Of a stretch of DNA of 50,455 nucleotides, positions 9,901-49,193 are shown in pieces. Below the pieces are notes generated by a model. That model was not told the origin of the DNA, ran no database searches, and worked only from the letters and a program-made list of their open reading frames with translations. The position numbers were made by a program, and so were the translations under genes. Origin of the DNA: Acidithiobacillus ferrivorans (GTDB lineage: Bacteria; Pseudomonadota; Gammaproteobacteria; Acidithiobacillales; Acidithiobacillaceae); NCBI GenBank assembly GCA_020723125.1, contig DYJM01000003.1, forward strand, positions 8,634-59,088, given 5' to 3'. The number at the start of each line of letters is the position of its first letter. Within the stretch, counting starts at the first letter, position 1.

Positions 9901-10373
9901 ACCCCCGCAGCCTGGCCGAACAACGCGCCAGCGGACCGGAAATTCATCTGAATACGGCGGCACTGATTCCCGACGATTATCTGCCCGACGTGCACTTGCG
10001 TTTGCAACTATACAAGCGCCTCAGCGATGTCCGCAGCGATTCCGCCATTGGTGAAATCATGGTGGAAATGATCGACCGATTCGGGCCGTTGCCAGACCCG
10101 ACCAGAACCTTGCTGTGTCAGACCCAGCTCCGCCTCCTGGCCAGCCAAATCGGCATTGATCAGATTGATGCCGGACCTTCCGGAGCGCGCCTGCAATTCG
10201 CCCAGGAAAATCAGGTATCCCCGGAAAAAATCATTGCGCTTGTTCAGCGTCCGCACAGTGTCTACCAACTGGATGGCGAGCAAGGCCTGAGAATTCGTCA
10301 GGATTTACCCGACGGCGAAGCACGCTGTCAAACAATCATCCAACTCATTGAACCATTGAGGAGCCATACATGA
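6924..10373 (+). CDS. mfd: Transcription-repair coupling factor
   Basis: 1149 aa SF2 helicase: VCGDVGFGKTEVALRAAF, LDEEHRFGVRQKE, TLTATPIPRTLNLSL, QLRGRVGRS. Apparent TTG start. Confidence 0.97.
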   Translation: MDFPLALGPVPRAGNARSFSHVFGAADCWLAAEMLRKWQKPLLVLLPNPRDLEEWQREWSFFAPDLDAPLIFPDREILPYDRLAPPADATATRLATLAALPNWRGLCLVPLAAALQRLPPRSFLDQHAFVLAVGDKLQPERFRQRLIDAGYRNVSEVSEPGELAWRGGIIDLFPSGSPLPYRIELFDTQVESIRAFDPETQRTLEKVSRVSLLPAREIPVDAAALNEFRSQFRAKFSGDPQRAEVYRAASRGQVPQGAEHYLPLFFPESSHLLTHFPPDGIIFMPPGLENASQQIRQDWQERHEERAYDSSYPILPPDALILTPAEWETALQSRAQVHGEVEGPGASLPCGPLPALQGNSETPLSALETFLRQLPQQGRALIAAESPGRQEALSERLNKAGLSATRLKNWPDFLQSTEKIAITVAPLERGLLLKEKNLVQLALISEAQIFGDRVFAQRRSAQVRQRHVEGMVRDLGELQPGDAVTHEEYGIGRFQGMSTPFAAQGDVNEYVVLEYAQGDLVYVPADHLDRIARYVGNGAAEPVLSRLGSQHWDKAKARAREKAIDAASELLDIYARRAARQGRAFAPPDEAYWDFVSRFPFEETPDQQQAIDAVIADMISPHPMDRLVCGDVGFGKTEVALRAAFLAAHGGAQVVVLVPTTLLAQQHYENFQNRFAGIPLRIEVLSRFQKGKTHKEILAATQAGDVRILIGTHRLLQKDVAFKDLGLLILDEEHRFGVRQKEQIKALRAEVDILTLTATPIPRTLNLSLAGLRDLSIIATPPQRRQPVRTFVQTWDDAVVVEACQRELHRGGQIYFLHNEVRDIERMASKLKRLLPEARLRVAHGQMPEGELEAVMLDFYHQRFDILLSTTIIESGIDNPHANTILINRADKFGLAQLHQLRGRVGRSHQRAYAYLFTPDVRAMSDDARRRLDAIQSLEDLGVGFALASHDLEIRGAGELLGEEQSGHMDEVGFTLFMEWLNDAVAAIRAGKDPRSLAEQRASGPEIHLNTAALIPDDYLPDVHLRLQLYKRLSDVRSDSAIGEIMVEMIDRFGPLPDPTRTLLCQTQLRLLASQIGIDQIDAGPSGARLQFAQENQVSPEKIIALVQRPHSVYQLDGEQGLRIRQDLPDGEARCQTIIQLIEPLRSHT

Positions 10374-11488
10374 GTACCACGCGCCTTGCCATATTGAGCC
10401 CCGCCGGACGTGGCCCCATGACTTTGCCCTCCAGCATGGGACAATTTGTTCATAGTACGGAAAGCCATCAGGAACTGTGGGGATGCTGGCTACAAAGCTG
10501 GAATTTACCGGTTGCCGTCAGCGAAATAGCACCCTTTCTGGATGAATTATCGCGGCAGGCCTTGCATCAGGAACGGGAAGTTTTCTGGTCCCCCATGCCC
10601 AGTGCAGACAGCGTCTCCCGTATGGTGTTGCGCGGTACGGCGCAGCCCGAGGCGCTGCGCCGTGCATTGACGACCCTGCATCTTCAGAACAGCATGCCTG
10701 GCCGCATACTTCATGCCCAGGGCGATAGTCTGGCCATTGCCATCCACGGCCCTCAAGGTCCGGTTCCTGCCGCCAATCGCGCCTTGGCTGATGCTCTGGA
10801 GGGCATCCAGCTTGATCTGGCCATAACACCACTTTGGGAAGCTGGTCACTTCAAGCTGTTGTTGACCGACATGGACTCCACCTTGATCAGCATTGAATGT
10901 ATTGATGAAATGGCGGATCACCTGGGTCTCAAGCGACAGGTTGCCGCCATCACCGAACGCTCCATGGCGGGCGAACTGGACTTTCAGACCTCCTTGCGCG
11001 AACGCGTGCGCTTGCTCCAGGGAACACCCGCCAGCAGCATCGACACCATCATCCGCGAACGCCTGCAACTGAGTCCAGGCGCCCGAGAACTCATTCAGGC
11101 AGCCAAGGCGCAAGGCCTGGAAACCGCTGTGGTTTCCGGTGGATTCACCCAGTTTACCCGCTATCTCCAGGAAATGCTGGATCTGGATTATGCCTTTGCC
11201 AATACCCTGGAGATTGTCGATGGTAAAATCACCGGGCAGGTTTTGGGGGATATTGTCGATGCCAATGCCAAGGCCGACCTTCTCGATTTGCTGGCCATCA
11301 GTGCCGGAACCGATGCCAGTCACTGCATTGCCATTGGCGATGGCGCCAATGATCTGCCGATGTTACGCAAGGCAGGCGTGGGTATTGCCTACCATGCCAA
11401 GGCGGTTGTTCGCGCCCAGGCCGATTTTCAGATTCGCTATGGCGGACTGGATACTGCAGCGCATTTTCTTGGCTGGTCATGTGCTTAG
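10370..11488 (+). CDS. serB: Phosphoserine phosphatase
   Basis: LLTDMDSTLISIECIDEMADHLG, AVVSGGFTQFT, AIGDGANDLPML HAD motifs; 4-nt overlap with mfd. Confidence 0.95.
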   Translation: MSTTRLAILSPAGRGPMTLPSSMGQFVHSTESHQELWGCWLQSWNLPVAVSEIAPFLDELSRQALHQEREVFWSPMPSADSVSRMVLRGTAQPEALRRALTTLHLQNSMPGRILHAQGDSLAIAIHGPQGPVPAANRALADALEGIQLDLAITPLWEAGHFKLLLTDMDSTLISIECIDEMADHLGLKRQVAAITERSMAGELDFQTSLRERVRLLQGTPASSIDTIIRERLQLSPGARELIQAAKAQGLETAVVSGGFTQFTRYLQEMLDLDYAFANTLEIVDGKITGQVLGDIVDANAKADLLDLLAISAGTDASHCIAIGDGANDLPMLRKAGVGIAYHAKAVVRAQADFQIRYGGLDTAAHFLGWSCA

Positions 11489-11492
11489 TCCT

Positions 11493-11521
11493 AAAAGCGG
11501 CAGTTGCCGTGGATGCTTTTT
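11493..11521 (+). terminator. Candidate intrinsic terminator downstream of serB (possibly bidirectional)
   Basis: AAAAGC-GGCAGTTGCC-GTGGAT-GCTTTTT: outer AAAAGC/GCTTTT arms around a small CGGC/GCCG hairpin, then T-run. Confidence 0.5.
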
Positions 11522-11539
11522 GCTCCATTGTTCCTTGCC

Positions 11540-11630
11540 TGTTGTTCTAACGTCCTGCTATCGGGAAAGAACTCGCCCTGCGGGCTCAGATAGTTCTCCT
11601 GACGGGCGCAAGATTTCGCCAAGAACAACA
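11540..11630. other. Highly self-complementary intergenic element (candidate structured RNA or gor leader)
   Basis: Nested arms: TGTTGTTCT (11540-11548)/AGAACAACA (11622-11630); CGTC (11551-11554)/GACG (11601-11604); AGAACT (11568-11573)/AGTTCT (11592-11597) with inner GCCC/GGGC; GGCG (11605-11608)/CGCC (11617-11620). Confidence 0.45.
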
Positions 11631-11715
11631 ACGGCGCGGGCCAAAGTCGCGGCAAAGCTTCCCCATCTGTCGGGTCAATACCGGAATAATCGCAGCAAAA
11701 CAAGGAGAAACCAGC

Positions 11716-13065
11716 GTGAACCAGGATTATGATTTAATCGTCATTGGCGGCGGCAGTGGCGGTATTGCCACGGCCAACCGGGCAGCCAGCTATGGGGCCA
11801 AAACTGCATTGATCGCAGCAGGACCATTGGGAGGCACCTGCGTCAATGTTGGTTGTGTGCCTAAAAAAATCTTCTGGAATGCTGCTCACATGGCCGAACA
11901 AATGCGGATGGCAGAAGACTATGGTTTTGATGCGGTTGCCTCCAGTTTTCATTGGGAACGGCTCAAGGCCAAAAGAGACGCTTATATTGATCGTCTCAAT
12001 GGCCGCTATGCACAGGGACTGGATGGTAATGGCGTTACCCTGATTCGTGGACATGCGCGTTTTCATGACGAAAATCAGGTGGAAGTAGACGGTAAGATTC
12101 TGCAGGCCCCGCACATCCTCATCGCTACCGGTGGCCAACCCACCTGGCCGGATATTCCCGGGGCCGAGCTGGGTATCAGTTCGGACGGTTTTTTTGAGTT
12201 GGAACAGGCTCCGCGCTGTGTCGCCATTGTCGGAGCCGGTTATATTGCCGTGGAACTGGCTGGCGTTTTGCATGCTTTGGGCAGTGATGTATCACTGCTC
12301 ATGCGACGCAAGCATTTTCTGAATGATTTCGAGCCGATGCTCCGTGAACATCTGATGGATGCCATGCTCCATCAAGGCATCAATTTGCTGGCCCAGCGTC
12401 AGGTGCGTGAGCTGGAAAAACGCCCTGATGGTTTATGCCTGCACTTTCAGGATGGAGACTGTCTGGGCGGACTGGACACCGTCATTTGGGCGATTGGCAG
12501 ACGCCCAAACAGTGCGGAACTGGGGCTGGAAAATGTCGGCATCAGCCCAGACGCACACGGATTCATTCCCGTGGATGCTTTCCAAAACACCACCATTCCT
12601 GGCATTTATGCGTTGGGGGACGTGACCAGCGCTCCCGCCCTGACCCCGGTGGCTATTGCTGCCGGGAGAAGACTGGCGGATCGTTTATTCAACCAGCAGC
12701 CCGAACGCCACCTGGATACCACGCTGGTGCCGACGGTAGTCTTCAGCCATCCCCCCATCGCCACGGTAGGCCTCAGCGAAACGGCCGCGCGGGAAACTTA
12801 CGGGGATGAAGCCGTCAAGGTGTATCAAACCGGTTTTACCCCCATGTTGCGGGCATTTTCCGAAGACCCTGAAAAAACCGCCATGAAACTGGTGACCGTA
12901 GGACGGGAAGAAAAAATTGTCGGTTTGCATGCCATTGGTGATGGCGTCGACGAAATGTTGCAGGGTTTTGCAGTGGCTTTACGCATGGGCGCCAGCAAGA
13001 AGGATTTTGACGATACCATCGCCATTCATCCCACCAGCTCGGAAGAGTTGGTCACTTTACGCTGA
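11716..13065 (+). CDS. gor: Glutathione-disulfide reductase
   Basis: [13 protein letters not shown] redox motif, [21 protein letters not shown]-terminal [17 protein letters not shown] start with AAGGAG upstream. Confidence 0.93.
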
Positions 13066-49117: not shown

Positions 49118-49193
49118 TGGCAGGGCAGGAGGGGATCGAACCCCCAACCTGCGGTTTTGGAGACCGCTGCTCTACCAATTGAGCTACTGCCCT
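49118..49193 (-). tRNA. tRNA-Trp (CCA anticodon)
   Basis: AGGGCAGTAGCTCAATTGGTAGAGCAGCGGTCTCCAAAACCGCAGGTTGGGGGTTCGATCCCCTCCTGCCCTGCCA; cloverleaf with encoded 3' CCA. Confidence 0.96.

Follow-up and report, generated by a model that had tools for sequence, protein, structure and literature searches.

The 227-nt spacer between serB and gor most likely holds a fused and decayed copy of a dispersed MITE, the palindrome of which is maintained and flipped by template switching during replication, and neither a leader of gor nor a new class of non-coding RNA; this reading comes from comparing sequences within and between genomes. The window, as we call the whole 50,455-nucleotide stretch of Acidithiobacillus ferrivorans DNA that was analysed, has serB at 10370-11488, the spacer at 11489-11715 and gor at 11716-13065, according to our reading of the sequence and the ORF listing. 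Both agree with the first-pass annotation that the spacer contains no convincing ORF, and an out-of-frame ORF (11139-11732) only crosses it. Equally correct was the statement that the spacer represents no known riboswitch class: a search against Rfam gave no gathering-level match in the spacer and only weak sub-threshold matches in six loci. The sole gathering-level match in the whole window is a tRNA gene at 49121-49193 on the minus strand. The parts of the window copy are listed in Table 1, together with a motif outside the element, AAGGAG, that is probably the ribosome binding site of gor.

Table 1. Features of the serB-gor spacer and of the element copy within it (window coordinates).
Feature	Position	Strand	Basis
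Whole element (fused, decayed MITE copy)	11490..11674	+	Homology to about 49 copies in own genome; comparison of its ends with occupied and empty sites
Left target duplication (TTAGT, against TTAAT in G004); overlaps the stop codon of serB	11485..11489	+	Filled and empty sites after serB in G004, G002 and G010
Left arm, type A (CCTAAAAGCGGCAGTTGCCGTGGATGC), shared with the serB-PGdx insertion of G004	11490..11516	+	
Element core	11517..11650	+	Core alignment and covariance model
Conserved helix, 5' half (TGTTGTTCT)	11540..11548	+	Helix 5 of family consensus
Conserved helix, 3' half (AGAACAACA)	11622..11630	+	Helix 5 of family consensus
AACGTCC replacing consensus AAGGCTCATCC	11549..11555	+	Comparison with L224, L228, L035 and L034
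Apical hairpin GCCC-TGC-GGGC	11575..11585	+	Helix 8 of family consensus
Right arm, shared with the PGdx-gor insertions of G002 and G010	11651..11674	+	
AAGGAG, outside the element	11702..11707	+	Sequence

Among the options first offered for the spacer was a dispersed REP-like repeat, and the dispersal is real. A search of its own genome with the spacer returned about 40 further places, mostly 82-93% identical, and relatives carry copies as well: eight others in a set of 40 genomes have the element, and these eight belong to two genera of the family. Scanning GTDB genomes for the sequence pattern gave matches in A. sulfurivorans, A. concretivorus, A. marinus, A. montserratensis, A. sulfuriphilus, A. 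sp. HP-2 and a related MAG, with two further isolated matches elsewhere that look like chance. Using a covariance model of the core, we counted 49 copies in the window genome, 59 in the complete genome G003, 62 in G002 and 8-47 in six others; the same model gave zero matches in the remaining 19 genomes of Acidithiobacillaceae and one fragmentary match, at 2.9e-4, in a sample of the class outside the family. One weaker isolated match (E 4e-11) was seen in G042, a genome from a genus otherwise without the element. Plasmids and viral contigs searched for the element gave no match, and we found no earlier description of such an Acidithiobacillus repeat in the literature that could be searched.

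Copies are non-coding and about 200 bp long. The left end reads CCTRAAAACGGC, the left arm measures ~30 bp and the core ~140 bp, and the right arm, which complements the left one, ends in GCCGTTTTYAGG. Arm sequence varies from locus to locus. A consensus structure was derived from an alignment of 53 copies picked for differing arms. It folds as one long hairpin with internal loops, and none of 500 shuffles attained any of five structure measures. Covariation was strong in this family alignment, with 63 pairs, 96.1% of cells paired and 36 pairs changed on both sides. The nested helices that had been drawn within 11540-11630 survive in part: the closing helix TGTTGTTCT/AGAACAACA is kept in nearly all family copies (98.4% of cells paired) and the inner GCCC-TGC-GGGC hairpin is conserved in the family, but CGTC/GACG, AGAACT/AGTTCT and GGCG/CGCC are private to the window copy and amount to chance pairings, the family consensus pairing the same region as CCTGC/GCAGG and TGTCAGGAGAG/CTCTCCTGACG. 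Taken alone, the spacer folds no better than dinucleotide-shuffled controls (z 0.12 on the plus and -0.36 on the minus strand), and trimmed to the element the window copy reaches a z of about -1.8, the weakest of 90 copies. On the folding-energy criterion for refutation that the first-pass annotation had set, the window copy therefore fails. This lack of folding energy concerns the window copy only, since the 90 copies, the window copy included, have a mean z of about -11.5 on both strands, and the structure is thus borne out at the level of the family. As for the possible bidirectional terminator at 11493-11521, the region is the element's left arm, and its self-palindrome is shaped like the core-deleted mini copies AAAAACGGCAGTTGCCGTTTTT of other loci.

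Several loci hold altered forms of the element. Core-deleted mini copies such as CCTAAAAACGGCAGTTGCCGTTTTTAGG occur at L211, L232, L234, L242 and L243; some mini-copy loci are full-length in other species, and the mini copies look like compact bidirectional terminators. Three copies of 80-112 bp (L226, L227, L229) are internally deleted, and in two of these a loss of sequence between GGCTC direct repeats accounts for the shortening; L086 and L095 carry a 12-nt extension (TTGTTCCCCTTGATGTTCT) in the conserved TGTTGTTC helix region.

Comparison with the empty sites of relatives revealed clean 5-bp target duplications, namely TTCAA (L061), TTCAT (L041), GTTAT (L025), ATCAG (L023) and, downstream of serB in G004, TTAAT. 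A 5-bp duplication with at most one mismatch flanks 27 of the 44 copies with both ends intact, compared with 1 of 91 control offsets, and the consensus of the duplicated target is NTNAN. We first took the duplication to be TTAA, of 4 bp; aligning empty sites showed it to be 5 bp long. We also rejected insertion of the core into pre-existing terminator hairpins, because truly empty sites have no hairpin; sites with a hairpin only resemble core deletions between TGCCGT direct repeats of the arms. Multiple copies (49), a length of ~200 bp, complementary ends, 5-bp duplications and matching empty sites are the features of a MITE, and the "REP-like" part of the first description was accordingly dropped: REP and BIME palindromes measure 20-40 bp and go with a RAYT transposase, unlike an element of ~200 bp with target duplications. 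The family also resembles YPAL, ERIC and Correia (NEMIS), which are likewise dispersed intergenic palindromic mobile elements of 100-200 bp forming long hairpins, some of them thought to affect upstream mRNA (PMC2229807). However, ERIC and Correia have TA at their ends and YPAL has duplications of 3-26 bp and internal repeats, whereas the present element has CCT ends and 5-bp NTNAN duplications.

With regard to mobility, an IS1380-type transposase gene lies in L336 between the ends CCTAAATTCGGCAGTT and AACTGCTTTTTTTAGG, with the duplication ATGAT, and further IS1380-type transposase genes lie in L338 and L339 beside the end CCTAAAAACAGCAGTT. The transposases match PF13701, and their best NCBIfam model, NF033539, scores 149.7 bits, below its cut-off of 180. 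Between these three loci and the element, 16-17 of 19 end bases are in common. Because the ends match over about 16-19 bp, an IS1380-type transposase is the likely mobiliser of the element, acting in trans; counting against this reading, no complete pair of a MITE and an autonomous parent with identical ends was found. MITEs of DDE insertion sequences of the IS1380 type are similarly short and non-coding, with terminal inverted repeats, a 5-bp duplication and ends that match a resident transposase-bearing element (CCTAAANNCGGCAGTT). The present family differs from them in that its arms are locus-specific beyond the terminal ~16 bp and its core is a long conserved hairpin that probably flips in place; it is in how the palindrome is kept and flipped that the family is unusual.

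A 1.06-kb copy, L224, was considered as the parent transposon and rejected, as it holds an IS110-type fragment inserted in the core. This transposase fragment lies at L224:715-1254 on the minus strand (PF02371, NF033542 below cut-off), and short remnants of the same insertion were seen in L035, L044, L045, L046, L048, L049, L228 and L230, all at one fixed core site after TGTTGTTCT. It seems that an IS110-type, RNA-guided insertion sequence family targets this MITE. In the window copy, the AACGTCC that replaces the consensus matches the left edge of the IS110-type insertion found in other copies, and is perhaps the scar left by deletion of such an insertion.

A probable origin of the window copy emerges from the same region in relatives. 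G002 and G010 have, in this order, serB, a peroxiredoxin-glutaredoxin gene (PGdx), the element and gor. In G004 the element lies instead between serB and PGdx, and in G003 a core-deleted mini hairpin occupies that place and gor has no element upstream. The loci with PGdx between serB and gor in close relatives are L009, L010, L211 and L212. The window copy combines the left arm of the serB-side insertion with the right arm of the gor-side insertion, and these arms pair at only 16 of 22 positions. PGdx is absent from the serB-gor interval of the window and from the rest of the genome, which has only a 34% glutaredoxin match elsewhere. The simplest account would be that two copies recombined, removing PGdx and leaving a fused element with mismatched arms. 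In this draft genome, contig ends frequently fall in the repeats, so a misassembly at the serB-gor junction is conceivable; the private changes in the core of the window copy speak against an artefact of joining.

Gene context was taken from a simple codon-usage gene finder, by which 141 copies were placed, none overlapping a predicted gene. Their neighbour genes are convergent in 73 cases, tandem in 57 and divergent in 11; adjacent 3' gene ends lie at a median of 13 bp (at most 30 bp in 151 of 203) and 5' gene ends at a median of 91 bp (at most 30 bp in 12 of 79), these position counts including copies common to several species that are hence non-independent. The core shows little preference for either orientation relative to transcription in tandem contexts (30 to 27). 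Four T residues follow the right arm in 88 of 155 copies (57%) and four A residues precede the left arm in 80 (52%), each against 7% of control windows, and both tracts are present in 72 of the 155. Judged by position and tracts, a two-way terminator or transcription boundary at gene ends is a plausible role, and the element is probably tolerated or used there as such. Bidirectional intrinsic terminators likewise have a GC-rich stem with A residues on one side and T residues on the other and are often found where genes converge, but the element is far longer than a terminator needs to be, is mobile, and keeps T4 in only about half of its copies.

The insertion is common to species, as judged by both flanks, at 36 loci, and core orientation differs at 23 of them. 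Counted by pairs, 23 have the same orientation and 32 are flipped, the locus-specific arms being common nonetheless, and 4 of 11 are flipped even in the closest pair, G003 and G004, the flanks of which are 96.6% identical. Template switching between inverted repeats homogenises arms and inverts the spacer between them (PMC8604942, PMC8794818), as in the quasi-palindrome corrections and spacer inversions published; those inversions span 2-8 bases, however, whereas the element has a spacer of ~140 bp and would invert at dozens of loci of one dispersed family. A dedicated site-specific recombinase, in the style of phase variation, would equally make orientation differ between species, but the locus-specific arms offer it no common site and the copies lie at 3' ends, where a flip switches nothing obvious; we hold such an enzyme to be very improbable, although its site could be placed within the conserved inner stem. 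A better, if still limited, chance attaches to ectopic gene conversion or replacement from other copies, with no inversion in place. Orthologous cores are mutual best matches in only 8 of 55 pairs, so that cores probably also swap sequence between loci, and some of the flips and of the changes in the arms could stem from ectopic conversion. As the general explanation it would need tracts that end at the arms, inverted, at many loci, and some flipped pairs, e.g., L013/L093 and L073/L082, are nearer to each other than to any paralog.

To follow change in the arms, we compared 936 arm positions at 26 loci, using 39 pairs of orthologs from close species. Double changes with pairing preserved numbered 41, where about 2 would be expected under independent change, and single changes numbered 69; two pairs of orthologs displaced by a 3-bp indel that both arms have were omitted from the double changes, as they would inflate that count. 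An identical 3-bp indel in both arms distinguishes L270 from L250. The transversion share is 34% among double changes and 35% among single changes, and stem mismatches in tandem contexts, read in the frame of the transcript, comprise 30 G-T and 32 A-C. An RNA hairpin under selection should be enriched in G-U and in transitions, whereas copying of one arm onto the other predicts the pattern observed; with no G-U bias, and with one spectrum for single and double changes alike, the covariation appears to have arisen by mutation at the level of DNA. If pairing were instead kept by selection on RNA, copies would have become terminators or mRNA-stabilising 3' hairpins and the arm changes would be ordinary compensatory mutations. 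The way in which copies hug gene 3' ends, the enrichment of T4 and A4 and the strong covariation all fit this, yet besides the lack of a G-U excess and of a distinct transversion share, independent steps could not have given nearly so many double changes where flanks are ~95% identical, folding is equally good on both strands and orientation is random, and we judge it distinctly unlikely. A structured cis-regulatory or trans-acting RNA is not supported either, as G-U is not favoured over A-C and copies have no fixed place or orientation with respect to one kind of gene, lying beside many genes in both orientations. The minus-strand sRNA of the first-pass annotation likewise lacks support, having no Rfam match and no G-U preference in its stem mismatches. 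Its cis leader controlling glutathione reductase agrees with the window copy being directly upstream of gor, but gor in G003 and G004 has no element there, elsewhere the element neighbours unrelated genes, in either orientation and mostly at their 3' ends, and the window copy folds like shuffled sequence, so that we give the idea almost no credence. A different kind of selection, on the core as a functional unit, e.g., as a hairpin of DNA or RNA to which a protein binds at gene ends, is unlikely but not far-fetched. The element would then have been retained at some places from a time before the genera diverged, with arms wholly turned over and orientation randomised, and copies would be exapted, freely invertible two-way transcription boundaries chromosome-wide. 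L273 (G004) and L083 (G017), from two genera, do have the same insertion place, with flanks 75% identical and differing arms, suggesting either great age or retention by selection.

Under our preferred reading, template switching acting on a MITE, intact copies inserted at NTNAN targets with 5-bp duplications, most likely through IS1380-type transposases in trans, and they persist next to the 3' ends of genes, convergent pairs above all. There, a hairpin of such length, with its A and T tracts, could end transcription both ways. During replication one arm may serve as template for the other, so that changes turn up in both arms together and the palindrome would be kept by DNA events and not by selection on RNA. 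Switching between arms would also invert the core, leaving orientation close to random between species, and the same instability may delete the core, of which a mini hairpin remains. Finally, neighbouring copies after serB and before gor would have recombined to give the window copy, with loss of PGdx.

The family may serve as a natural record of template switching at bacterial palindromes, with arms copying each other and a core of ~140 bp flipping at dozens of loci. It also carries a warning, in that low folding energy, dozens of covarying pairs and conservation across genera would normally be taken to mean a structured RNA. For the genomes that carry them, copies would in addition be a means by which genes are deleted through recombination, as appears to have occurred in the window.
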